Positions 4,008 through 18,277 of a stretch of 22,226 bases of DNA are shown here, one piece after another (within the stretch, counting starts at the first letter, position 1; each line of letters opens with the position of its first letter). A program made the translations under genes and the position numbers. Source of the stretch: Microthrixaceae bacterium. GTDB taxonomy: Bacteria > Actinomycetota > Acidimicrobiia > Acidimicrobiales > Acidimicrobilacustridaceae. The stretch is from NCBI GenBank assembly GCA_023264915.1, contig JAHFUU010000002.1, positions 1 through 22,226 on the forward strand, written 5' to 3'. A model generated the notes under the pieces. That model searched no databases. It worked only from the letters and a program-made list of their open reading frames with translations, and was not told the origin of the DNA.

Positions 4008-5429
4008 ATGACCGAAGACTCCGACCCGAACGAGGCTGGCCATTCAGCCCACATCCACCGAGCGCAGGCCAGGGGACTGGCAGGCGAGATGCCGCGCCCG
4101 ATACGGGTCACGATGCTGGGCGCGGGCAGCATGTTCACCCCCGAGCTCGCCCGTGACCTGTTTGCCATCCCCGGTGGTGCCGGTGGGACCATCGCCCTCG
4201 TCGACGTGGATCCCGAGCGTCTCGACGCGATGGCCAAGGTGCTGGAGCGCCAGACAGAGGAGCTCGGGGTCGCCGAGGCCTGGACGATAGAGGCGCACCT
4301 TGACCGCAGGGAGGCTCTTGCAGGAAGCCACTACCTCGTCAACTGCATCGAGGTGAGCGGCACCTCCTGCGTCCGGTTCGACAACGACATTCCAGCCAGC
4401 TACGGGGTTGACCAGTGCATCGGCGACACCGTGGGTCCGGGGGGCCTGTTCAAGGCGCTTCGCACCATCCCGGTGTGGCTTGATGTTCTGGCAGACGCCG
4501 AGGATCTCTGCCCCGACGCGCTCGTGCTCAACTACACGAACCCGATGAGCATGATGTGCCTGGCGTCAGCCCGGGCGTCGTCGATGGCCGTGGTCGGACT
4601 CTGCCACTCGGTCCAGGGCACGAGCATGGTGCTCGCATGGCGTTGTGGGGTCCGCTACCGCGACCTCACATGGGCATGTGCCGGCATCAACCACCTCAGC
4701 TGGTTCACGACGCTCGAGCACGACGGTCGTGATCTCTACCCGATCCTGTTCGACAAGGCCGAACGTGATCTTCGGGGTGATCCCGCTGACCCCAACGACG
4801 CGGGGGACCTGGTCCGCAAGGACATGATGCTGCACTTCGGTGCCTTCATCACCGAATCGAGCGGTCACCTGTCCGAGTACGTCCCCTACTACCGCAAGCG
4901 TCCCGATCTCATCGAGCGGTACTGCAGGCCCGGCTATGACGGCGGCTCTTCGTTCTACGCCGACAACTGGCCGGCCTGGCGCGAGCAGGCCGACCGCGAC
5001 CGCGAAGCATTGCTTGCCGGTGACAGCGCGTTCGAGTCCAAGAGGAGCTGGGAGTACGCATCCTGGATCATCGAGTCGCGCGAGAAGTCGGTGCCGTACC
5101 GAATCCACGGGAACGTGCCGAACACCGGCGGGCTCATCGAGAACCTTCCCCACGACGGTGTCGTCGAGGTTGCGTGCCTCGTCGATCACAACGGAGTGTC
5201 ACCGACCCGATACGGGCGCCTCCCCCCACAGATGGCCGCGATCTGCGCGGCCAACATGGCCATGTACGACCTGGGGGCCCAAGCGGGCATCGAGCGTTCC
5301 ACCGAGCTGGCGATCCACGCACTCCTGCTTGATCCGTTGACCGCTGCGGTGTGCTCGCCTGCCGAGATCAAGTCGATGACGTTGGAGATGTTCGAAGCCG
5401 AAGCTGATTTCCTCCCCGGTTTCACCTGA
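4008..5429 (+). CDS. Glycoside hydrolase family 4 (alpha-galactosidase/alpha-glucuronidase/6-phospho-glycosidase type)
   Basis: 473 residues, near the family's usual 430-480. GH4 enzymes cleave glycosides by an NAD+- and Mn2+-dependent oxidation-elimination mechanism in the cytoplasm. The Rossmann start is visible (VTMLGAGSMFTPEL, GAGS at 38-41, then a VDVDPERL acidic loop), as is the NYTNPMS block (175-181). The metal ligands are C199 in GLCHSVQ and H229 in AGINHLSW. The C199/H229 pair and the NPMS block resemble MelA/LplD-like members, but substrate and the need for a 6-phosphate cannot be settled by eye. ATG 4008 gives about 27 extra residues before the usual start; ATG 4089 (residue 28) is the alternative. 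No sugar transporter is next to it, so it seems a stand-alone gene. Confidence 0.93.
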   Translation: MTEDSDPNEAGHSAHIHRAQARGLAGEMPRPIRVTMLGAGSMFTPELARDLFAIPGGAGGTIALVDVDPERLDAMAKVLERQTEELGVAEAWTIEAHLDRREALAGSHYLVNCIEVSGTSCVRFDNDIPASYGVDQCIGDTVGPGGLFKALRTIPVWLDVLADAEDLCPDALVLNYTNPMSMMCLASARASSMAVVGLCHSVQGTSMVLAWRCGVRYRDLTWACAGINHLSWFTTLEHDGRDLYPILFDKAERDLRGDPADPNDAGDLVRKDMMLHFGAFITESSGHLSEYVPYYRKRPDLIERYCRPGYDGGSSFYADNWPAWREQADRDREALLAGDSAFESKRSWEYASWIIESREKSVPYRIHGNVPNTGGLIENLPHDGVVEVACLVDHNGVSPTRYGRLPPQMAAICAANMAMYDLGAQAGIERSTELAIHALLLDPLTAAVCSPAEIKSMTLEMFEAEADFLPGFT

Positions 5430-6640: not shown

Positions 6641-7300
6641 TCAGCCCGGCGGGCGGATCATCAGGTCGAAGGCTTCGACGACACCGCTGATGTGGCGAGC
6701 CGTGGCAGAGGATCCCGATTGGATGGTGGTGAAGAGCAGACCCATCACGATCGACTCGATGCCCGCGGCGAGGACGTCAGGCTCGAAGTCAGAGCGCACA
6801 TCTCCGTCGTGTTGTGCTTGGGTGAGCGCGCCAGCTACCAGATCGCTGAAGCGGCTGAGCGCTGGTAGCTCGACCAGGCGCGGTACCTCGTCGGGCTCCA
6901 TCCCGGCCAGGATCCGGCGGGCCAGGGGATGGCTCGGCAGGACCATGACGGCGTGAACGACCAGCGACGGGATCAGCTCGCGTATGCCGGTTCCGGTGAC
7001 AAGTGCCGAGACCTCGTCGATCATCCCTCCCGCGTCCGCGTCGACAGAGGCGCGGAAAAGAGCCTCCTTGTTGTCGAAGTAGGCATATGCCGCCGCTTGG
7101 GTGAGCCCCGCGGAACGTGCGATCTCAGAGACCGATGTGCCCCTGTAGCCGCGGCTGCCGAACCGTTCGATGGCAAGTTCGAGGATGCGTCGGCGGGTTC
7201 GCTCGCCCTTGGTCTCGCGGCCCTCGTCCGCGCCGTCCGCACCCTCGTCCGAGTCAGTCCCGGAACCGGGCTCGACCAGCCGCTCGACCAGGTCAGTCAT
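6641..7300 (-). CDS. TetR family transcriptional regulator, copy 1
   Basis: 219 residues. An acidic N-terminal tail (about 1-30) precedes the TetR DNA-binding region: KGERTRRRILELA, then RGYRGTSVSEIARSAGLTQ and AAAYAYFDNKEALF (about 50-80). The C-terminal ligand/dimer region is hydrophobic and resembles no named subfamily I can pin down. The start is ATG 7300 because GGAG lies about 10 nt upstream; the frame runs to 7351 but the added residues are Arg/Cys-rich and unlikely. It is closely similar in the DNA-binding part and general layout to the next gene (7490-8170), same strand, 189 bp away, so the two look like a tandem duplication. Its target may include the inverted repeat at 7402-7437. 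Confidence 0.93.
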   Translation of the reverse strand: MTDLVERLVEPGSGTDSDEGADGADEGRETKGERTRRRILELAIERFGSRGYRGTSVSEIARSAGLTQAAAYAYFDNKEALFRASVDADAGGMIDEVSALVTGTGIRELIPSLVVHAVMVLPSHPLARRILAGMEPDEVPRLVELPALSRFSDLVAGALTQAQHDGDVRSDFEPDVLAAGIESIVMGLLFTTIQSGSSATARHISGVVEAFDLMIRPPG

Positions 7301-7401
7301 CGAGTTCCGTCTCCTGCAAGCCCGACAGCTTCGGCCGATCCGCGCCCGCATGGGCGAGAGTTGTCACGAGGTCATCCTAACGAATAATCAATAATCTGGC
7401 T

Positions 7402-7437
7402 AGATCTGTAGATTCCGGGGTTGCGGGAGACAGATCT
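7402..7437. promoter_or_regulatory. Inverted repeat upstream of tetR copy 1, possible operator
   Basis: AGATCTGT (7402-7409) and ACAGATCT (7430-7437) are exact inverted copies 20 bp apart, in the AT-richer patch between the two tetR genes. A TAGGAT hexamer on the minus strand close by (about 7373-7378) could be the -10 of tetR copy 1. It shares no half-site with the 8308 operator. Short and possibly chance. Confidence 0.3.
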
Positions 7438-7489
7438 CTGCCCGGTCCGGAGCAGCATCCGGCGGTGACGGCCCCCCTCGCTGCGGTGG

Positions 7490-8170
7490 TTACGGCTGAC
7501 TCGCCTGCTCGGCTGTCGCGCCCCGCAAGGGGGAGGAGCCGTTCTGCGGCGGCCTCAGCACGGCGTCGAATATGGACAGCACACCCATCTGCCTGCGGGC
7601 CTCGGTGCTGCTCCCGACCTGCACGATGCTGAGCATCAGGCTCAAGATGATCGTCTCGGCTCCATTGGAGAAGGCCTCGGCGTCAAGGTCGCTGCGGACC
7701 TGCCCGGTCGACTGGCCCTCGCGAACGCGAGCCGCGATCGTGTCTGTCAGGTGCGCTAGGGCCGGGAGGTTGATCAACCGCTTCAAGGCGTCAGGCTCGT
7801 GTCCGCCGAGCACCCTCTTGACCAGGGGATGCGTCTCGAGGTTGCCGATGAAGAAGATGAGCAGCATTGGCACCAGCTCGTTGGGCGGGATGCCGGCACC
7901 CTGGGCGACTGCCTCCGTTATCGCCGCATCCGCGTCGGCGTCCACAGCGGCATCGAACAGGGCTTCTTTGGAGTTGAAGTACGCGTACGCCGCGGCCTGG
8001 GTGAGACCCGCGGCCCTGGCTATCTCTGACACCGAGGTCGCCCGGTAGCCGCGGTCACCAAATCGAGCGATGGCGATCTCGAGCAAGCGCTTCCGGGTCC
8101 GCTCGCCCTTGGTCGCACGTTCGGCGTCCTCAGGTAGAGTCCCGATGTCCTCTGAATAGGTGCTGGTCAC
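7490..8170 (-). CDS. TetR family transcriptional regulator, copy 2
   Basis: 226 residues. The TetR DNA-binding region is clear: TKGERTRKRLLEIA, RGYRATSVSEIARAAGLTQ and AAAYAYFNSKEALF (about 20-72). It matches copy 1 almost residue for residue there and more loosely in the ligand domain, which has a run of hydrophobic residues (VPMLLIFFIG). The start is GTG 8170, supported by GAGGAG 4 nt upstream; the frame runs to 8290 but that would begin inside the promoter. Upstream are a -35/-10 pair (8281-8310) and a 23-bp operator (8308-8330) that overlaps the -35, so autorepression is likely. The same half-site occurs upstream of the lipid operon (16980-17038), making this protein the best candidate regulator of that operon. 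Confidence 0.93.
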   Translation of the reverse strand: MTSTYSEDIGTLPEDAERATKGERTRKRLLEIAIARFGDRGYRATSVSEIARAAGLTQAAAYAYFNSKEALFDAAVDADADAAITEAVAQGAGIPPNELVPMLLIFFIGNLETHPLVKRVLGGHEPDALKRLINLPALAHLTDTIAARVREGQSTGQVRSDLDAEAFSNGAETIILSLMLSIVQVGSSTEARRQMGVLSIFDAVLRPPQNGSSPLRGATAEQASQP

Positions 8171-8280
8171 ACGTCTCCTCGATCCCGGGCGATGTGGGCC
8201 CGCCGGGGCCCACGAGAGCGGGTCTTTGCGTGGTGAGCTGAAGCGCTTGAGGTCACCGTACGCCAAATCCCTCCAGAAAA

Positions 8281-8310
8281 TCGATAACAAGCACTATTTC
8301 ATCTAATCAA
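8281..8310 (-). promoter_or_regulatory. Predicted promoter of tetR copy 2
   Basis: On the minus strand TTGATT (8310-8305) and TATCGA (8286-8281) are separated by 18 nt, a fair sigma-A-type match. The -35 lies at the edge of the palindromic operator 8308-8330. The predicted transcript would have a leader of about 105 nt with a GAGGAG before GTG 8170. Confidence 0.45.
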
Positions 8311-8330
8311 TAGGTCTATAAGACCTATTG
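8308..8330. promoter_or_regulatory. Perfect palindromic operator, probable TetR binding site
   Basis: Arms CAATAGGTCT and AGACCTATTG are exact inverted copies with spacer ATA. The site sits between the divergent tetR copy 2 and the ORF at 8363, overlapping the predicted -35 of tetR (TTGATT, minus) and a TTGAAA (8328-8333, plus) that could serve the ORF. Size and placement are those of a TetR autoregulatory operator. The half-site ATAGGTC recurs at 16980-17038. Confidence 0.75.
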
Positions 8331-8362
8331 AAATACTGATTCCTCTGGTTCATCTTGGCTAC

Positions 8363-9266: not shown

Positions 9267-10046
9267 TCATGGTTGCACCGTGCCGAAGAAGCGAGCCTGC
9301 AGCCGTCTCATCCCCGACAGCCACCGGTCATAGTCGGCGGCCTTCCTGCGGAAGTACTCCAGCACCTCGGGGTGAGGCAGGATCAAGAAGCTCTCGTCGT
9401 CCAACCCAGCGACCACGGCATCGGCCACATCGGCTGGCGACAGCATGCCGTCGACGCCTGCGACACCGCCGCCGTCGATCCCCGCTGTCATGTTCGTCGC
9501 CACCGCCTGAGGGCAGAGCGCAGACACCTTCAGACCCTGGTCACCGTATGTGATCGCCAGCCACTCGGCGAACGCCAGAGCGGCGTGCTTGGTGACCGAG
9601 TAGGGAGCTGAGCCGATCTGGGTCAGCATGCCAGCTGCCGAAGCGGTGAACAGGATGTAGCCGTTGCCCCGCCCGACCATCAGAGGTACGAGCGAACGTG
9701 CAGCCCAAACGTGTGCCATGACGTTGACATCGAAGATGTGCCGCCATCGGTCGTCCTCGACCTGCTCGTTGCCGATCACAAGGATCCCGGCATTCGAGCA
9801 GAACAGGTCGATCGGGCCAGCCTCGCGCTCGACACGGTCGACCAGGGCAGCGACCTCGGCCCCGTCGGAGACGTCGACACGGGCAGCGATCCCGCCGATG
9901 GCCTCAGCTGCGGCGGCGGCCGCATCGCCGTCCAGATCCGCAACGGTCACGGTCGCCGCTCCTTCGGCAGCGAAGCGCTCAGCGAGCCCTCGACCTATTC
10001 CGTGAGCGCCGCCGGTGACCACGATGTTGGAGCCTTCGATCTGCAT
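9267..10046 (-). CDS. Short-chain dehydrogenase/reductase (SDR)
   Basis: 259 residues, classical SDR. TGGAHGIG (11-18) binds the cofactor dinucleotide, VADLDG follows strand 2 (D37 suggests a preference for NAD(H)), SNAG is at 84-87, N108 in DVNVMAH, S136 in TASAAG, and Y149/K153 in YSVTKHA. These oxidise or reduce alcohol/ketone groups in the cytoplasm; the substrate is unknown. It follows the LLM oxidoreductase by 48 bp on the same strand, so co-transcription is possible, but TACCAT lies 7 nt before ATG 10046, suggesting a leaderless promoter of its own. The C-terminal tail contains a phenylalanine/tyrosine-rich stretch (YFRRKAADYDRWL) usual for this subgroup. Confidence 0.95.
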   Translation of the reverse strand: MQIEGSNIVVTGGAHGIGRGLAERFAAEGAATVTVADLDGDAAAAAAEAIGGIAARVDVSDGAEVAALVDRVEREAGPIDLFCSNAGILVIGNEQVEDDRWRHIFDVNVMAHVWAARSLVPLMVGRGNGYILFTASAAGMLTQIGSAPYSVTKHAALAFAEWLAITYGDQGLKVSALCPQAVATNMTAGIDGGGVAGVDGMLSPADVADAVVAGLDDESFLILPHPEVLEYFRRKAADYDRWLSGMRRLQARFFGTVQP

Positions 10047-10053
10047 CGGAGCG

Positions 10054-10059
10054 ATGGTA
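10054..10059 (-). promoter_or_regulatory. Leaderless -10 element (TACCAT) of the SDR gene
   Basis: TACCAT on the minus strand is followed by 7 nt and then ATG 10046. It fits TANNNT with the leaderless spacing; no ribosome-binding site is present. Confidence 0.45.
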
Positions 10060-10094
10060 GGCGTCCGGCGGCCTTCCGTTGGCGCCCGCAGCGA

Positions 10095-11096
10095 TCAAGA
10101 ACCGGCCGCAGCGCTCATCGTGTCGCGCACCACTGCCATCCGGTCAGGACCCCAGGGAAGCGGCATGATGATGGGGACCTCGACACCCTGGTCGAAGTAG
10201 TCCTGCACGGTTGCCCGGACATGGGCTGCGTCTCCCATGACGTCGATCGCATCGATCATCCGTTCAGAGATCGCACCCAGAGCGCCAGCGCGATCCTTGG
10301 CGGCGTGACGTTCGCGCACCTCGGCTACCTCCTCCACGAAGCCCGCGTTGGAGAAGTTGTTGGCATAGGCCTCGACGACCGCGTACGAGAACAGGTCACG
10401 GCGAGCCAGGTCCATGCCCTCGTCCCGATCGCAAACGCCCACGTGCACGTACCCGTATATCCGGCAATGGCCGCCGTCTGTCCGCTGGCGCTCGCCGGCG
10501 CGGACATGGTCGACAGACCAAGGGACATGCGAGGCGGGAAGGTAGTTGAGAAGGACCCCGTCGGCGACCTCGCCGGCGAGAGCCAGCATCTTGGGGTTCA
10601 GTGCTCCGACAGCGATCGAGGGCTTCCTGTCAGCCAACCGCACGCCGAGACGGAACCGGCGGCAATGGTAGAAATCACCGTCGAAGGTCACTGTCTCGCC
10701 GCTGAAGCATTGGCGAAGGAGCTCGACATACTCGCGGATCTGCGCCAGGGGCCGGTCGCCGAACGGGGCGCCGTGCCATTGTGAGATGACCACGGGCGAG
10801 GAGATCCCGACGCCCAGGATGATCTCTCGATCGGGATGAAGCGCCTGGAGCGTGGCGGCCCCCATCGCTGCGAGCATCGGCGTGCGCAGGCCCGTTGCGA
10901 TGACCCCTGTGCCAAGGTCCAGCGACGGTTCCGCCGCACCTGCTGCCGCGAGGGTCGAGAATGCCTCGAACCCGATCGTCTCGGCGGTCCAGAACGAGCA
11001 GTACCCCAGCTCGCGGGCGTGACGGGCTGCTTCGAGCCCCGCCTCGACGCCCAACGTCTGGAAGCTGGCAAAGGTGATCCCGAGGGGTTCCGGCAT
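10095..11096 (-). CDS. LLM-class flavin/F420-dependent oxidoreductase
   Basis: 333 residues. It has the luciferase-like TIM-barrel pattern: GITFASFQTLG at the start, ARELGYCSFWTAET (28-41), LDLGTGV, TPMLAAMGAATLQALHPDREIILGVG in the middle, then a RYVELLR-type helix with FDGDFYHCRRFRL and PSIAVGALNPKMLALAGEVADGVLL. In actinobacteria this branch most often uses coenzyme F420, but FMN use cannot be excluded by eye. It starts 26 bp after the kinase gene and precedes an SDR by 48 bp, so the two redox enzymes may act in one pathway. TAGGGT lies exactly 6 nt before ATG 11096, indicating a leaderless start independent of the kinase. Confidence 0.93.
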   Translation of the reverse strand: MPEPLGITFASFQTLGVEAGLEAARHARELGYCSFWTAETIGFEAFSTLAAAGAAEPSLDLGTGVIATGLRTPMLAAMGAATLQALHPDREIILGVGISSPVVISQWHGAPFGDRPLAQIREYVELLRQCFSGETVTFDGDFYHCRRFRLGVRLADRKPSIAVGALNPKMLALAGEVADGVLLNYLPASHVPWSVDHVRAGERQRTDGGHCRIYGYVHVGVCDRDEGMDLARRDLFSYAVVEAYANNFSNAGFVEEVAEVRERHAAKDRAGALGAISERMIDAIDVMGDAAHVRATVQDYFDQGVEVPIIMPLPWGPDRMAVVRDTMSAAAGS

Positions 11097-11102
11097 GGCC
11101 GA

Positions 11103-11108
11103 ACCCTA
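11103..11108 (-). promoter_or_regulatory. Leaderless -10 element (TAGGGT) of the LLM gene
   Basis: TAGGGT on the minus strand, 6 nt (TCGGCC), then ATG 11096. It lies in the 26-bp gap after the kinase stop. The same hexamer precedes GTG 17294. Confidence 0.5.
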
Positions 11109-11122
11109 CCCAGCCCGGAAGC

Positions 11123-12574
11123 TCAGAACGATCCGGACTTGGTGAGGGTGTACCTGGCTGCTGAACGGCCCGAGCCCCGGTAGCTCACCACGGCTGTGAA
11201 GTCGCCACTGTCGTCACTCCCGCATCCCGGCTCGTCGATGGTCACCCTGGCTTGCCGTGTCGCACCGGTGACCTCGGTGCCGAGGGACGAGCCACGGCTG
11301 TCCAGGACCTCCAGCGACATCGTCGTGCCCGGCGGCGCCGTCAAGGCGATCGCCACCTGCCCGTCGCACCCCAGGCTGAAGCTGTCATCGACGTGGAACG
11401 GGTAGCGATCGACGTCGGTGGCGGGAACCAGGTTGGCCCCGTTGACAGCCCTCTCCAGGCGTTGGCCGTCAATGGCGTCCGGCGCCGCCTCGCAGCCATT
11501 GGCTGCGTTCTTGTCGTAGTCGTCGTGATCGTTGGTGCAGCGGGTCCCGTCTGTGTTGGCAGCGGCCGGCTTGCCACAGGGTTGATAGGCCAGATCCACA
11601 CAGGGTGCCGTCGTGGGCGCGGCACTGGTCGGCGCGGGGATCGTGGGCGACGCAGCCGTGAACTGCTCAGAGGTCAGATCTGATGCTTGTGTCGACCCGA
11701 GTCGCCAGCCCAGGAGAGCCGCGCATGCAACGCACGCTGTGAGACCGACCGCGCCGGCAGCTCTCCAGCCTGCCCGCCGCCGCGGGCGGGCAGCGAGGCT
11801 TCGAGCGACCATGGCCGAGGCCGCAGCGGTCGGACGCCTGTCCGGGTTGGGCCGCAGGAGGGGCCTGAGGATCCGGGCAACGCGCGGGTCGAGCCCCTGG
11901 GGGAGCGTCTCGACCTTGCCGTTGGAGGCACGACCGATGGCGACTCGCGCATCAGCGGTGCCGTAGGGGCGCTGACCGGTGGAGGCGAACAGCAAGGTGG
12001 CACCCAGCGCGAACACGTCGGTGGCCGGGGTGGACGGCTCACCACGGGCTTGCTCTGGGGCCATGAAGTCCGGAGTGCCAAGGATCGCTCCGGTGACCGT
12101 CAACCCCGAGGTCGCGTCCCGGAACGAGGCAATTCCGAAGTCGCTGAGGAACGGCCGGCCATCGAGGTCGAACAGAACGTTCGCCGGCTTGATGTCGCGA
12201 TGGACGATCCCGCTCCGGTGAGCGTGGGCCAAAGCGTCCAGAAGTGGCCCTGCAATTGCCAGGACCTGGTCTGGCCGTAGCGGCCCATATGCTCGTACCT
12301 GCTCTGAGAGCGTCCCGCCGGCAAGGTACGGCATGACGAGGACGAGATCGTCTCCGTCGTCGATCAAGCCCAGCAAGGGCACGACGTGGGGGTGACGGAG
12401 CCGCCCGAGCGCAGCAGCTTCGCGCCTGACCCGAGCTCTGGCACGGGCGATCTCACCCGCACTGCCACACAACGCCAACCGCTTCAGGGCGACCGCATGA
12501 CCGCGATCGTCCAGCGCGAGGTCGACGACGCCCATGCCTCCGCGGCCCAGTCTCTGCTGCAACAAGTAGCCCAC
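11123..12574 (-). CDS. Transmembrane Ser/Thr protein kinase (Hanks type) with Cys-rich/PPC-like ectodomain
   Basis: 483 residues. Kinase domain about 1-262: glycine loop GRGGMGVV (10-17), K31, HRDIKPAN (125-132, catalytic D127), DFG (145-147), GTPDFMAPE (166-174). A single transmembrane helix spans about 272-291. Outside, a Pro/Thr/Ala spacer leads to a cysteine-containing block (C325 to C361, ending NAANGCE) and then a beta-rich domain, about 385-480, that looks like a bacterial pre-peptidase C-terminal (PPC) module. It is not the PASTA type, so it probably senses something other than muropeptides. The start is GTG 12574: an in-frame TAG lies 12 nt upstream, and the glycine loop starts unusually close to the N-terminus. 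TAGCCT (12584-12589, minus) is a possible -10. No cognate phosphatase gene is nearby. Confidence 0.95.
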   Translation of the reverse strand: MGYLLQQRLGRGGMGVVDLALDDRGHAVALKRLALCGSAGEIARARARVRREAAALGRLRHPHVVPLLGLIDDGDDLVLVMPYLAGGTLSEQVRAYGPLRPDQVLAIAGPLLDALAHAHRSGIVHRDIKPANVLFDLDGRPFLSDFGIASFRDATSGLTVTGAILGTPDFMAPEQARGEPSTPATDVFALGATLLFASTGQRPYGTADARVAIGRASNGKVETLPQGLDPRVARILRPLLRPNPDRRPTAAASAMVARSLAARPRRRAGWRAAGAVGLTACVACAALLGWRLGSTQASDLTSEQFTAASPTIPAPTSAAPTTAPCVDLAYQPCGKPAAANTDGTRCTNDHDDYDKNAANGCEAAPDAIDGQRLERAVNGANLVPATDVDRYPFHVDDSFSLGCDGQVAIALTAPPGTTMSLEVLDSRGSSLGTEVTGATRQARVTIDEPGCGSDDSGDFTAVVSYRGSGRSAARYTLTKSGSF

Positions 12575-13269: not shown

Positions 13270-14718
13270 TCAGCCCGCGGCCGCGACGAGCTCGTCGTAG
13301 GACTCGGCGATGGCATCACGCAGACGGGCTGGATCTTGGACTGCCCCCGTGTCCACGTGCAGGCCCATGTTGAGCACGCCCCGGTAGGACATCACCGTCA
13401 GGTTGAAAGCAGTGCCAGCGAGCGGCCCGAGCGGGTAGTTCGCTTCGATCAGGCCACCTGCGATGTAGAGGTCGAAGGGGGCTGCACGCAGGTTGGATGT
13501 CGTGAAGTCGACGGTCTCGACCTGCTGGCGAGCGAATCGGACCAGCACCGATGTCGGCAAGACGTTGATGAACCCTGCGAGGGGTTCGATGATGCCTATG
13601 GCCTTCTCTCCCTTGGTGGCGGTGAGCCTTTCGTGCACGGCGGCGAACTGCGCTGCCGGGTCGTCATCCCATGCAGGAACCAACCCGCGTGTCGGGACGA
13701 ACGAGTTGCCGCCTGAGGAGTCGTCGGTACGGGTGCTGATGGGCATGGCCATGCGAAGCGTCGCGATCGGCGACCCCTGGTCGCGGTGGTATCGGCCGGC
13801 CCCGCGGGCGGCACCTGTCACGAAGAAGTCGTTGACGCTGCCCCCGAAGGTCTTGGCAACCCTCTTGGCATCATCGAGAGGCACGTCGATCGCCTCGAGG
13901 TGCCGGCGCAGGGTCCTATGACCCCAAAGTGGGGAGTGAGCGCTGTCGGTGACGGTGAGCTGGCGGACCGCCGAGCGTGCCGTCTCGACCAGGTCAGAAC
14001 CCACTGATCGGAGGCGGTCGGGATGGGTCGCCAGCTCAGCGGAGTTCGCGAGCGCTCGCTGGCCGACTCCCATGGTGCGGCGCCACCCGTGGCTGAGCGT
14101 GTCAGCAGCTGTGGCCAAGATGTTCGAGGCTGCCGTCTGCTCGGCGTCGATGTCGTAGGTGTCGACGTCGGGTGCGTCACGCGTGAGATCTATGAACTGC
14201 TCCGACATGCGGATCCCGCCCTCGCCGTCGGTGATGGTGTGATGCATCTTCTGGAGGATCGCTGCACGGCCACCCTCGAGCCCTTCGATGACATAGAACT
14301 CCCACAAGGGGCGCGTGCGATCGAGGGGATCGAGGACCAGCATCGTGGACATGTCGAAGAGCTGGCGTCGCGTCCCGGGCGGGGGCACAGCGATTCGGCG
14401 CACGTGGTAGTCGATGTCGAAGTCCGGATCGTCATGCCATTCCGGTGGCGCCAGGCGGCCGAGCGCCGGGACGACCTTCTGGTGCAGGCGCGGGATCTTG
14501 TGCACCATCCGGATCAGGCGGCGACGGTAGCGATCGAAGTCAGGAGACCGGTCGAGGATGGTGATGCTGCCGAAGGTCGAGGACAGGTACGGGTCCTTCT
14601 CCACGTTCCACATCATCGCTTCGACGTCGGTCATGCGCCGCTCGTTGTGGACGGTCCTCTCGCGAGGCCCCCGCGGCTTCGTCTCGGGATGCCCGCTGTC
14701 TGCTTCGGTTTCAGCCAT
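13270..14718 (-). CDS. Wax ester synthase/diacylglycerol acyltransferase (WS/DGAT)
   Basis: 482 residues from ATG 14718. The defining HHTITDG active-site motif (HHxxxDG; H159, H160, D164, G165) is present, preceded by PLWEFYVIEGLEGGRAA. A second family block, GGSVNDFFVTGAARG, and a C-terminal LYIAGGLIEANYPLGP region follow. These enzymes join fatty acyl-CoA to diacylglycerol or fatty alcohol at the inner face of the membrane, making triacylglycerol or wax ester storage lipid. It is the last gene of a minus-strand cluster with PAP2, hydrolase and an unknown protein, 178 bp after PAP2. The start is uncertain: 14730 and 14634 (MTDVEAMMWNV, the position where most family members begin) are alternatives; the frame upstream to 14958 overlaps PAP2 and is rejected. 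Confidence 0.94.
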   Translation of the reverse strand: MAETEADSGHPETKPRGPRERTVHNERRMTDVEAMMWNVEKDPYLSSTFGSITILDRSPDFDRYRRRLIRMVHKIPRLHQKVVPALGRLAPPEWHDDPDFDIDYHVRRIAVPPPGTRRQLFDMSTMLVLDPLDRTRPLWEFYVIEGLEGGRAAILQKMHHTITDGEGGIRMSEQFIDLTRDAPDVDTYDIDAEQTAASNILATAADTLSHGWRRTMGVGQRALANSAELATHPDRLRSVGSDLVETARSAVRQLTVTDSAHSPLWGHRTLRRHLEAIDVPLDDAKRVAKTFGGSVNDFFVTGAARGAGRYHRDQGSPIATLRMAMPISTRTDDSSGGNSFVPTRGLVPAWDDDPAAQFAAVHERLTATKGEKAIGIIEPLAGFINVLPTSVLVRFARQQVETVDFTTSNLRAAPFDLYIAGGLIEANYPLGPLAGTAFNLTVMSYRGVLNMGLHVDTGAVQDPARLRDAIAESYDELVAAAG

Positions 14719-14752
14719 CAAGTCATCCATCCGACGATCGTCCAGGGACCAT

Positions 14753-14775
14753 TCGGTGATCGGCGCTCGGTGATC
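14753..14775. repeat. Direct repeat TCGGTGATC x2 upstream of WS/DGAT
   Basis: TCGGTGATC occurs at 14753-14761 and 14767-14775, 14 bp apart, in the spacer before the WS/DGAT start. It could be a regulator half-site pair or chance. Confidence 0.3.
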
Positions 14776-14896
14776 ACCCACGCTGGGAAGTGTGTACCGA
14801 CCAGCCAGGCTAGGGCAGCGGACCGGTCCACGCTCACGCCGGTTGTTCAAGGGGCCAGAGCTCGTGGATCTGGCCAGAGAGATCGGCCCGGCAGAG

Positions 14897-15562
14897 TCAA
14901 CGCTGTGGCCGTGGGATCGGCCACAGCTTCCGGGCGACGATGCCCAGAGCCGCGCCAACGGCCAGCCCGCCGATCACGTCAGATGGGTGGTGGATCCTCA
15001 CATAGACGCGGCTCGTCGCGACGAGGATGCCCATGCCGAAGTACGCGGGCGCGAACCGGCTGTCCTCAGAGAGCAGGAAGGAGGCCAGCATCGCCGAGCT
15101 GGAGTGCCCGCTCGGGAAGCTGGTCGTCAGCGGTATGCGGATGTGATAGGGCCTGTCGGTCTGGACGACCGGACGCTCCCGCTTGAACAGGGACTTGACC
15201 ATCCCGTTGATCACCACCGACTCGATGCCGAGCAGCGTGAACAACCGAATGGCTCTTTGGATGTCGCGATCTGACCGTAGAGCCTTGACCGAGCCGATGA
15301 GCAGCCAGATCAATCCGAAGTCCCCGAGCTCGGTGGCGGCATAGAAGACGCGGTCATATGGCTCGCGCCCGCGCCACCGATCCAGCAAGGCGCTCGCTCG
15401 CGCATCCATACGACCGATCAGGCTCAGGTCGTGGGGAAGACCGACGTGGTGAAGGGCTTCGTCCGGTGCCGGCTGGAGCGTCTCGATGCCGTCGTTGGTG
15501 AGGCCATCGAGGTCCTCGTCGTCTAGGGCTCCCAAGGGCTTGATCTGATCGGGGTCAGGCAC
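14897..15562 (-). CDS. PAP2-family lipid phosphatase
   Basis: 221 residues, with a soluble acidic N-terminus (about 1-60) and hydrophobic helices after it. All three phosphatase motifs are present: KSLFKRERP (K123-P131), FPSGH (149-153) and SRVYVRIHHPSD (S184, R185, H191, D195). Family members remove phosphate from phosphatidate, or from prenyl or undecaprenyl diphosphates, at the membrane. Because the next gene is WS/DGAT, the likely job is phosphatidate to diacylglycerol, feeding triacylglycerol synthesis; that is inference. GTG 15562 is 9 nt after the hydrolase stop, and TAACCT overlapping that stop lies 6 nt upstream of the GTG, so translation may be coupled or leaderless. A 9-bp hairpin spans its last codons (14902-14927). 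Confidence 0.92.
   Translation of the reverse strand: MPDPDQIKPLGALDDEDLDGLTNDGIETLQPAPDEALHHVGLPHDLSLIGRMDARASALLDRWRGREPYDRVFYAATELGDFGLIWLLIGSVKALRSDRDIQRAIRLFTLLGIESVVINGMVKSLFKRERPVVQTDRPYHIRIPLTTSFPSGHSSSAMLASFLLSEDSRFAPAYFGMGILVATSRVYVRIHHPSDVIGGLAVGAALGIVARKLWPIPRPQR
14902..14927. other. Hairpin at the 3' end of the PAP2 gene
   Basis: GCTGTGGCC (14902-14910) and GGCCACAGC (14919-14927) are exact inverted copies with an 8-nt loop. The hairpin lies in the final PAP2 codons before the WS/DGAT spacer. It might protect or trim the upstream mRNA, or simply reflect codon choice. Confidence 0.3.
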
Positions 15563-15568
15563 GGCGCA

Positions 15569-15574
15569 AGGTTA
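15569..15574 (-). promoter_or_regulatory. Possible leaderless -10 element (TAACCT) of the PAP2 gene
   Basis: TAACCT on the minus strand overlaps the TAA stop of the hydrolase (15572-15574) and is followed by 6 nt before GTG 15562. It would allow PAP2-WS/DGAT transcription apart from the upstream genes, but translational coupling is an equally good reading. Confidence 0.35.
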
Positions 15575-16426
15575 GGCGGGCATGGCCCGCGTGATGGCCG
15601 TCGCTATCCCGTCGGGATCCTCCAGCGGACCGAAGTGGCCGAGCGCGGGGTGCTCTTCCAGTCGAGCATCGGGCAACGCTGCCGCCACGGCCGGCGCGAG
15701 CGTGGCGGGCCCGTGGCCGTCGTCGAAGCCGCGTGCCACGGTGACCGGGCAAGGTACCTCTCCCAAGCGTGAGAAAGCGCTGTTGCGAGCGCCCATCTCG
15801 AAGGTGGACGCCTCGGTGTCTGGCCGGCACTTCAGCCTGACCGAGCCGTCGGGCTCGAGCGCGAAACCAAAGTCGACATATGCGCGGAGCGCGTCTGGGT
15901 GCAAGACGTTGAGCGGGGGCTTCGATGCGTAGTTGTCATAGGCCGCATCGAGGGACTCGAAGGTCGTGCGCCGCCGCCTGGCACCTTCTGCGAGCGGGTT
16001 GGCTGCGGATCGGGCCATCCCTGCCATGGGAGGGATCACGATCGGCTCGAAGAGGTAGAGGGAGGAGAACGTCCCGTGCATGGCCTGCTCGGCCAGCAAG
16101 AGCGCGGCACCGCCTTTTGAATGTCCGGCTGCTCTGACCTCGTTGAGCCCGAGCCCTTCGACCGCAGCGAGGACATCTTCGCCGAAGCCGTGCCAATCGA
16201 TGTCCAGCATGTCGGGGCGGGTCGAATCGCCATGGCCCCGGAAGTCCAAGGCGTAGCAGTGGAAGGTCAGGCGCTCAGCGACAGGTTGCCAGACACGGCC
16301 GTGGAAGCCCGTGGCGTGGCACAACAGCAGGGGTGGGCCTGCGCCGCCCAGGTCGTGGATGGCGATCTGCACCCCGTCTGTCGAGCCCACCATCATCGGC
16401 GGTCCAGCCCTTGCCCAGCTCGGCAT
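15572..16426 (-). CDS. Alpha/beta hydrolase
   Basis: 284 residues. The fold's motifs are clear: LLLCHATGFHGRVW oxyanion region (33-46), DFRGHGDS (61-68), nucleophile S103 in AGHSKGG, an acid in GFDDGHG (D235 or D236), and H264 in ALGHFGPLEDP. The Lys after the nucleophile (GHSKGG instead of GHSMGG) is characteristic of one actinobacterial subgroup. Substrate unknown; its place next to PAP2 and WS/DGAT suggests a lipid or ester. It is 58 bp downstream of the unknown 156-aa gene and 9 nt before the PAP2 start, hence likely one operon. ATG 16426 is used; ATG 16396 or 16393 would remove 10-11 residues that look like untranslated leader. Confidence 0.92.
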   Translation of the reverse strand: MPSWARAGPPMMVGSTDGVQIAIHDLGGAGPPLLLCHATGFHGRVWQPVAERLTFHCYALDFRGHGDSTRPDMLDIDWHGFGEDVLAAVEGLGLNEVRAAGHSKGGAALLLAEQAMHGTFSSLYLFEPIVIPPMAGMARSAANPLAEGARRRRTTFESLDAAYDNYASKPPLNVLHPDALRAYVDFGFALEPDGSVRLKCRPDTEASTFEMGARNSAFSRLGEVPCPVTVARGFDDGHGPATLAPAVAAALPDARLEEHPALGHFGPLEDPDGIATAITRAMPA

Positions 16427-16484: not shown

Positions 16485-16955
16485 TCAGCTTGGGGTGTGT
16501 GGTGTTGCCGGGCTGGGATCGCACAGGTCGATTCTGTCACCTGCGGGCACCAACCCAACCCTCCATGTGCCGAGCAGGCCGCGCCGGAGGAGGTCGCGGA
16601 TGACGCCCAGAGCACGATCGTCGACCACGCGCCGCCCCTCGCAGATGGTGTCGTGCAACAAGTCGATGGGCACGACCGCCTCTGCCGCGCGTGCGGTGCC
16701 CATGCCCATGGACACGAGCAAGGTGTCCACGAAGGGAACCCAGCTCAGGTGGTCAGCAAGCCCCGATCGGATGTCAGCGGCGAGATGGCTGACGGTGAAT
16801 GCTGCCTCGTGCTGTGTCGACGAGCTGGTGACGCCGAGCAGCACGAACACGCCGGCGGGACCGGCGACGAGCCGAGCCCGGTCGTGGCTTGCGACCGCGA
16901 AGTTGCCTGGGAGGGAGGCCAAGGCTTCGTCGATGCTGTTCAGCGTCTCGGTCAC
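16485..16955 (-). CDS. Hypothetical protein heading the lipid operon (weak NERD-like pattern)
   Basis: 156 residues from GTG 16955 (TTG 16961 is the alternative). No signal peptide or membrane helix is certain. The stretch RLVAGPAGVFVLLGV (about 28-42), a later hydrophobic VPFVDTLLVSMG and the helical RALGVIRDLLRRG recall nuclease-related NERD proteins, but the catalytic Asp/Glu-Lys residues are not evident, so I regard it as unknown. It is the first gene of the minus-strand cluster leading to hydrolase, PAP2 and WS/DGAT. Three 18-bp operator-like palindromes (16980-17038) end 25 nt upstream of GTG, so this promoter is the one the predicted repressor would block. TACCTT (16960-16965, minus) is a possible -10 but is slightly too close to the GTG. 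Confidence 0.72.
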   Translation of the reverse strand: MTETLNSIDEALASLPGNFAVASHDRARLVAGPAGVFVLLGVTSSSTQHEAAFTVSHLAADIRSGLADHLSWVPFVDTLLVSMGMGTARAAEAVVPIDLLHDTICEGRRVVDDRALGVIRDLLRRGLLGTWRVGLVPAGDRIDLCDPSPATPHTPS

Positions 16956-16979
16956 GTGCAAGGTATCGGATCTTCTGAT

Positions 16980-16997
16980 ATAGGCCTTTAGACCTAT
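16980..16997. promoter_or_regulatory. Operator-like palindrome A
   Basis: ATAGGCCTTTAGACCTAT, 18 bp, symmetrical apart from a C/T difference within the half-sites and the central bases. Its right half is identical to the half-site of the 8308-8330 operator. It is the site nearest the lipid operon start codon (25 nt). Confidence 0.6.
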
Positions 16998-16999
16998 TG

Positions 17000-17017
17000 G
17001 TGGGCCGTACGACCTAT
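17000..17017. promoter_or_regulatory. Operator-like palindrome B
   Basis: GTGGGCCGTACGACCTAT, 18 bp, imperfect palindrome around GTAC, starting 20 bp after site A. It forms with site C a perfect inverted repeat of 17-bp arms (17001-17017 and 17021-17037) with spacer ATC. Confidence 0.65.
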
Positions 17018-17020
17018 ATC

Positions 17021-17038
17021 ATAGGTCGTACGGCCCAT
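17021..17038. promoter_or_regulatory. Operator-like palindrome C
   Basis: ATAGGTCGTACGGCCCAT, 18 bp, the mirror image of site B, starting 21 bp after it. The three sites repeat every 20-21 bp, that is two helical turns, so bound dimers would line up on one face of the DNA. Confidence 0.65.
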
Positions 17039-17293: not shown

Positions 17294-18277
17294 GTGGGAA
17301 CGACTCGACCCGGGCAAGGCGCTTGCAGCGGATCCATCGACAGCCTGCTTTCGGTCTGGGGGCAACATCTCGGCCGCCGGGTCTGGGGTACCCGGTGGCG
17401 ATCGGCGAGCAAGGCCCGAGATCCGGCCGTGGGGTCCGCGCCCAGCAGCCAGCTGGCTTCCTGGCTTGCCGAGCTGGCCAGCGTGCCAAGTGGTGTTGCG
17501 CTCGCGTACCTGCCGGCCACCGGAGGGATCAATGCTCGCACCCGCGAGCAGCTGATCCTGGCGGTCTGTGAGGTCAACGGCACGCGCCGTTCCGCCTGGG
17601 TGCATGGCGCGTGGCTCGACTTCTTGGGGCGGCGCGATCCCGACGAGGTGCTCGGTCCGCTCTTTGACTACGCGAGGTCCTGCGCGGAGGCCGGGCACCC
17701 GCTTGACACGACGACGCTCGACGCCGTGTTTCCCCGCCCCGTCGTCCGTTCGGTTCGTGCGACGGTCGCCCGCGCTGAGCTTGCCGGGCTGGTCGACACC
17801 GCGGCCGATGGTCTGATCGAGACGACCCGTGGACGACGGCCATTCTCGTTCGGCGGCCTGGCCAAAGGGGCAGCCCTGGTCGCTGCCACCCTTCCGATGA
17901 CGGTGCCGACGGTTGCCGCCGCCACCGCGATGCGCGCCCTGGACATCCTCGCTCCCTCGATGCCCGAGATCGACACTCCACCAGGAACTGACTCTGACCT
18001 GATGGTCGACCTTGCAGCGCAGGCAGTGCCGGCCTACCTGGGCAACACGATCTTGAGAACCGGTCTGGTGTGGTCGCCGGTGAGCATCTCGATCGCCTTC
18101 CGGATGGAGGGCAAGGCATTCACCCTGACGGTCGGCCGCGGGGCCGTGAGCGTGCGACAAGGGGTCAGCCGTCGAGCGCTCGTGGTCATCGACGGCGGGC
18201 TCGACTCCATGCTCAAGGTCGTCGCCAGTCGAGTGGCCGGCGAGCTCACGAACCCGCGCCCGCTGCGCAGTCGCTGA
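17294..18277 (+). CDS. AhpD/carboxymuconolactone-decarboxylase-like protein lacking active Cys, with SCP2-like C-terminus
   Basis: 327 residues from GTG 17294, chosen for the leaderless TAGGGT 7 nt upstream and because the frame before it does not look like protein. Residues 83-110 follow the AhpD/CMD helix pattern (TREQLILAVCEVNG then AWVHGAW), keeping E93 and H104 but with T97 and S100 where the family has its two redox cysteines. A Gly/Ala-rich hydrophobic segment (187-212) could be membrane-associated. The tail (about 235-320) resembles SCP2-type sterol/lipid carrier domains: ISIAFRMEGKAFTLTVGRGAVSV, then ALVVIDGGLDSMLKVV. It is divergent from the lipid operon and convergent with the acyl-CoA dehydrogenase, fitting a lipid-related role. 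Function is not established; domain calls are by pattern. Confidence 0.78.
   Translation: MGTTRPGQGACSGSIDSLLSVWGQHLGRRVWGTRWRSASKARDPAVGSAPSSQLASWLAELASVPSGVALAYLPATGGINARTREQLILAVCEVNGTRRSAWVHGAWLDFLGRRDPDEVLGPLFDYARSCAEAGHPLDTTTLDAVFPRPVVRSVRATVARAELAGLVDTAADGLIETTRGRRPFSFGGLAKGAALVAATLPMTVPTVAAATAMRALDILAPSMPEIDTPPGTDSDLMVDLAAQAVPAYLGNTILRTGLVWSPVSISIAFRMEGKAFTLTVGRGAVSVRQGVSRRALVVIDGGLDSMLKVVASRVAGELTNPRPLRSR

Follow-up and report, generated by a model that had tools for sequence, protein, structure and literature searches.

The window analysed here, a stretch of 22,226 nucleotides, is contig C198 of a 3.17-Mb, 577-contig, 72%-complete genome (G000, below the window's own genome). On its minus strand, orf158 (16485..16955, starting with GTG at 16955 or with TTG at 16961) heads a series of genes for an alpha/beta hydrolase (15572..16426), a PAP2-family phosphatase (14897..15562), a WS/DGAT acyltransferase (13270..14958), a protein kinase (11123-12574), a luciferase-like monooxygenase (10095-11096) and an SDR (9267-10046). 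Judging from strand and gene order, the whole series from orf158 to the SDR may be co-transcribed. The order of the last three genes (9267..12574) is largely retained in the related loci L018, L021 and L022. At L017 there was no match to the kinase, and orf158 is again the first gene, with tandem palindromes directly upstream. Diverging from the cluster is a gene for a 327-residue protein (17294-18277) that has no Pfam or NCBIfam match and has relatives in L017 and L022.

Orf158, too, is without a match in Pfam or NCBIfam. Its predicted structure (pLDDT 83.4) resembles restriction-endonuclease-like folds at middling Z-scores (9.1 for the top match, 7.7 and below for the rest), a likeness of a model that shows no function. 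The WS/DGAT protein scores 301 bits against TIGR02946, just under the cut-off of 310, and its true start probably lies downstream, because the homology of its closest relatives begins at residue 77-108. The six closest named relatives are 50-72% identical (three MAGs labelled Acidimicrobiales and three entries with wider actinobacterial labels); the remaining 62 of the 68 loci are distant, at 25-31% identity, and many belong to Proteobacteria. The operon encodes a WS/DGAT and other probable lipid enzymes, and the cluster is probably one for fat storage.

Upstream of orf158 lie three 18-bp palindromes, which the initial annotation had reported and which are present as described, their starts 20 and 21 bp apart. 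The proximal palindrome, A (16980..16997, minus strand), reads ATAGGTC-TAAA-GGCCTAT toward the operon; its TAAA centre coincides with a putative -35 element and recurs in 8/8 orthologous promoters. Palindrome B (17000..17017, minus strand) starts 20 bp upstream of A, and palindrome C (17021..17038, minus strand) lies beyond it. That B and C together form an inverted repeat also holds: it spans 17001-17037, with 17-bp arms and a 3-bp loop, and is the longest inverted repeat found in the window. Arms of 17 bp were reached in 0/200 first-order Markov shuffles, the shuffle maximum being 15. The heptamer GACCTAT/ATAGGTC occurs six times in the window (8310, 8322, 9992, 16991, 17011 and 17021), against a mean of 0.73 and a highest count of 5 in 200 shuffles.

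By protein homology, orf158 was found in eight of 37 family genomes, the window's own included, and the promoters of these eight loci were compared; L017 and L110 (G029) share the DNA upstream of orf158 and were counted once. All eight carry GGYC-TAAA-GRCC, followed by 11 nt and then CGATR. The string used to align the rows gave exactly one match in each locus, and it partly fixes the mean pairwise identities of the core (0.86) and of TAAA (1.0). Mean pairwise column identity is high in CGATR (0.89) and low in the 11-nt spacer, which has drifted (0.29), and in the upstream flank (0.27). A second exact GGNC-N4-GNCC, the counterpart of B, stands at -19/-20 in 6/8 promoters; G026 has it at -31, and G028 has an imperfect version. 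Only the window's own genome showed a third exact site within the 52 nt examined. At the level of sequence, conservation, spacing and palindromy are direct observations; the sites are indeed phased palindromes in front of the orf158/hydrolase/PAP2/WS-DGAT cluster, as the annotation had it, and the orthologous promoters show them to be conserved. The exact composite was present in three of 395 genomes of the class (the window's own, G027 and G033), each time as an orf158 promoter, in a sample that left out the other five orf158 genomes; with at most one mismatch it was present in 13 of the 395, against 3 for the control.

The elements within this composite resemble those of a flagellar/WhiG-type promoter. 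A putative -35 TAAA (16987..16990, minus strand) lies inside palindrome A, 16 nt from a putative -10, TCCGATAC (16963..16970, minus strand), and the orf158 promoters as a group fit TAAA-N16-NNCGATR. FliA promoters of E. coli have N15 spacing. As described in PMC8325347, the flagellar consensus of -35 TAAA and -10 GCCGATAA is common to WhiG. TAAA is matched in 8/8 orf158 promoters and so is CGATR at the -10, with the exact GCCGATAA in G036 only. A search of the window's own genome with TMAA-N16-KHCGATAV returned the orf158 promoter as its sole match (control 0).

A cognate sigma factor is present, since the product of a gene on contig C407 matches the WhiG equivalog NF004935 at 369.7 bits (cut-off 343). 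FliA_WhiG matches over the cut-off occur in 13/37 family genomes, the strong match in G028 being fragmented. Flagellin_N had no match in the 37 family genomes, 22 of which are at least 90% complete and at most 5% contaminated. The RsiG motif was found in none of the 15 sigma loci examined; the account in PMC8325347 gives twin-motif RsiG in three of four Acidimicrobiales species. The window's own genome also encodes a second sigma factor of the FliA_WhiG family (G000:C543:1749-2414, 202 bits, just over the cut-off), which has over-cut-off counterparts in seven relatives.

The boxes themselves match the register of NarL/LuxR-type sites, GGNC-N4-GNCC in phased copies. On contig C175 of the same genome, the gene for a response regulator with receiver and GerE domains (4010-4657, minus strand) is flanked by genes for a GAF/HisKA_3 kinase and an Flp_Fap protein on the same strand. 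Orthologs of this regulator (at least 78% identity, the one in G029 being partial) are found in exactly those 13 of the 37 genomes that have sigma matches over the cut-off. Of these 13, eight have orf158, as do 0 of the other 24. The presence of these genes and their co-occurrence are seen directly in the genomes; the 13 span ten genera, and because the 24 without them represent only two genera (g2 and g9), the pattern may reflect few events. In g2, 20/21 genomes match the DNA-binding part of the regulator alone (residues 151-215, 68-80% identity), usually within a short open frame; the 11 such loci scanned (L152-L162) gave no palindrome over the threshold.

The gap between the regulator and flp genes carries the same kind of box. 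When the gaps were scanned by script with a matrix built from 17 orf158-promoter sites and no others, a palindrome stood exactly 21 bp before CGATR in nine of the 13 genomes (G000, G022, G023, G024, G026, G027, G028, G029 and G033); the conserved box thus adjoins the regulator gene in the window's own genome and in eight more. Its score is weak in G029 and modest in G026 and G028. Shuffles equalled the best score in 0/500 trials in ten of the 12 genomes scored, in 9/500 in G025 and in 22/500 in G029. By eye, G034 has an imperfect palindrome, G035 has one 21 bp from CGATC, and G036, which was not scored, has one at 22 bp; the G025 gap has no palindrome. The flp -35 regions (TACG, TCAA and TAAG by eye) fit TAAA poorly. 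On the flp side the palindrome sits one helical turn further from CGATR than at orf158 (21 versus 11), and the distances of 11, 21, 31 and 52 are all near whole helical turns.

We propose that A, B and C are candidate sites for a dimeric response regulator of the NarL/LuxR type, most likely the C175 regulator, which by its conserved position beside such a box would be the best candidate binder. Measured from the CGATA -10 of a flagellar/WhiG-class promoter, they would stand 11, 31 and 52 bp upstream and face roughly the same side of the helix, and the middle of palindrome A would serve as the -35 TAAA of that promoter. Because the pair of palindrome and CGATR also precedes the flp pilin gene, we suggest that the lipid operon belongs to a small WhiG and response-regulator regulon that includes Flp pili. 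We favour, with moderate confidence, a WhiG-type promoter under the control of a response regulator and the placement of the lipid operon in the pilus regulon; the use of WhiG itself at the orf158 promoter is suggested by the form of the promoter and the presence of the sigma factor. As to sign, activation seems the better guess, since at flp the palindrome immediately precedes the -35 region and the distances of 11, 21 and 31 all fall near helical phase. At orf158 the site overlaps the -35, so repression may operate there.

How far such a regulon might extend cannot be read from the palindrome alone. At up to two mismatches, ATAGGYCNNNNGRCCTAT occurs at 21 places in the window's own genome, A, B and C included, against 12 for a reversed-pattern control. 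Seven relatives hold 21 exact palindromes (control 5), ten of which belong to orf158 or flp. Of the other 11, six lack a CGATR in the nearest 60 bp, in two it lies at 12 nt inside a coding start, and one each has it at 3, 22 and 36 nt; these 11 remain mostly unexplained. Because of the ratio of 21 to 12, and because the extra sites mostly lack a rightly spaced CGATR, a regulon defined by the palindrome alone was rejected and we claim no long list of targets. The flanking genes scanned at C252 (MurT, CobO), C149, C193, C314, C442, C485, C457 and C460 are therefore not claimed. On C460 (L089:4045-4089), two palindromes lie 27 bp apart, with CGATG 3 nt after the second, next to a stretch of N. 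By eye, a palindrome precedes CGATA by 29 bp at a DUF4328/zinc-ribbon gene on the own contig C311, and G026 and G029 show a similar layout upstream of a zinc-ribbon-like start.

Outside the family, the one-mismatch composite has ten matches, which were set aside. Those in L184 and L187 fall, by eye, inside ABC-transporter coding sequence; those in L182 and L183 precede a hydrolase-like protein (by eye). L185 and L186 come from two genomes of a different family in the class; there the composite precedes a 487-residue protein that appears Hpt-like by eye. G138, also from outside the family, has a palindrome at L188 that is flanked by a response regulator (42% identity) on the CGATG side and by a weak flp-like match (E 0.006) on the other. 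Because this composite reads toward the regulator and away from the pilin, L188 gives no support to the flp arrangement and was rejected as a further case of it.

Two known systems invite comparison. The WhiG/RsiG regulon of Rubrobacter radiotolerans likewise combines an actinobacterial WhiG-class sigma factor, flagellar-type promoters (-35 TAAA, -10 GCCGATAA) and pilus genes, and predicted WhiG promoters lie at type IV pilus genes in the Rubrobacter data of PMC8325347. Here, by contrast, the pilin is of the Flp type, a response-regulator-like palindrome stands at the promoter, and the regulon would take in a lipid operon. A literature search of incomplete coverage found no published description of a composite promoter of the orf158 type.

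The second comparison is with the dormancy regulons of OsdR and DevR (DosR); the DosR regulon of M. tuberculosis includes the WS/DGAT gene tgs1. OsdR and DevR are NarL-family regulators with palindromes of the GGCC-N4-GGCC type, and the register of the OsdR consensus given in PMC5069765, AGGGCCGATCGGCCCT, matches that of our boxes by eye. The differences are that the C175 regulator is nearer VraR, that the half-sites here are TAGGYC, that one site adjoins a pilin gene and that the promoters look WhiG-type. In a PDB search the regulator scored 160.9 bits against VraR and 123.2 bits against DevR. It was thus rejected as a DosR/DevR ortholog, and we claim a likeness to DosR in the box only. The recognition helix reads KTVKNH in the C175 regulator and KTVKNY in DevR; helices like KTVKNH are common in the NarL family.

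Another NarL-type regulator could occupy A, B and C while the WhiG-type promoter holds, since the window's own genome has six strong and three weak GerE matches. The kinase/regulator pair on C193, which a two-mismatch site adjoins, is one example, and a protein missing from the 72%-complete assembly would be another. However, the regulator whose adjacency to the site is conserved across genera is that of C175, and we consider a different binder rather unlikely.

Another possibility is that the regulator sites are real but that a housekeeping sigma factor reads the promoter. TACCTT (16965-16960) fits a TANNNT -10 at leaderless spacing from the GTG at 16955, and by eye it is found in G029 as well. 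The other six promoters lack it, while CGATR stands at 11 nt in 8/8, and we judge this reading unlikely.

The initial annotation had instead ascribed the sites to TetR: in that reading, tetR copy 2 (or copy 1) uses one common operator to repress its own gene and the lipid operon alike. Autoregulated operators of the TetR family are indeed palindromic and promoter-near, and one such site lies at 8307..8331 (minus strand; TCAATAGGTC-TTATA-GACCTATTGA), beside tetR copy 2 (7490..8290, minus strand), whose best NCBIfam match is ScbR-like at 53 bits against a cut-off of 150. Two adjacent tetR genes occupy 6641-8331, and the pair is found together with the operon genes in L017 and L018 too. The annotated 7-mer half-site is literally shared between this site and A/B/C within the one window, but the spacer is 5 nt at tetR and 4 nt in A/B/C. 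The copy 2 site (CAATAGGTC...CTAT) is independently kept in 6/6 orthologous loci (L018 and L195, from G027, share one site and were counted once); CAATAG...CTAT is constant there, the inner bases vary, and in four of the six the right half is no longer GACCTAT. In A/B/C-type sites it is the outer base that varies, while GGYC/GRCC and the 4-bp spacer are kept. The two kinds of site thus share neither spacing nor conserved bases, and the tetR2 site appears to be separate from the A/B/C system. Further, orf158 sites of the form GGYC-N4-GRCC occur in two genomes, G028 and the 79%-complete G036, that gave no close match to tetR2 (43% identity at best, none at E 1e-30). Spacing, conserved bases, the separate conservation of the tetR2 site and this distribution do not support binding of either TetR to A/B/C; the TetR explanation is probably wrong, and we regard it as very improbable.

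We give least credence of all to the idea that B and C are a transcription terminator or a chance GGCC-rich hairpin: the 17-bp stem with its 3-nt loop, and the moderate frequency of such palindromes in this GC-rich genome (21 versus the control's 12), would permit it, but the repeat lies between divergent genes both here and in L017, no T-run follows it (by eye), and a phased second palindrome persists in 6/8 promoters despite diverged letters.

If a response regulator does gate a WhiG-type promoter here, these genomes would offer an experimentally testable WhiG regulon apart from sporulation and flagella, in a large group whose members are mostly uncultured. An operator centred on the -35 of an alternative sigma factor would be a clear example of a single site at which two signals are read, and surface pili would be linked to lipid storage. 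More tentatively, as a reading that is less likely than not, we suggest that in Acidimicrobiia in which flagellin was not detected, WhiG (possibly held by RsiG/c-di-GMP) and a two-component regulator may converge on composite promoters whose -35 element lies within the regulator's palindrome, so that Flp pili and neutral-lipid storage would be switched together as one lifestyle programme.
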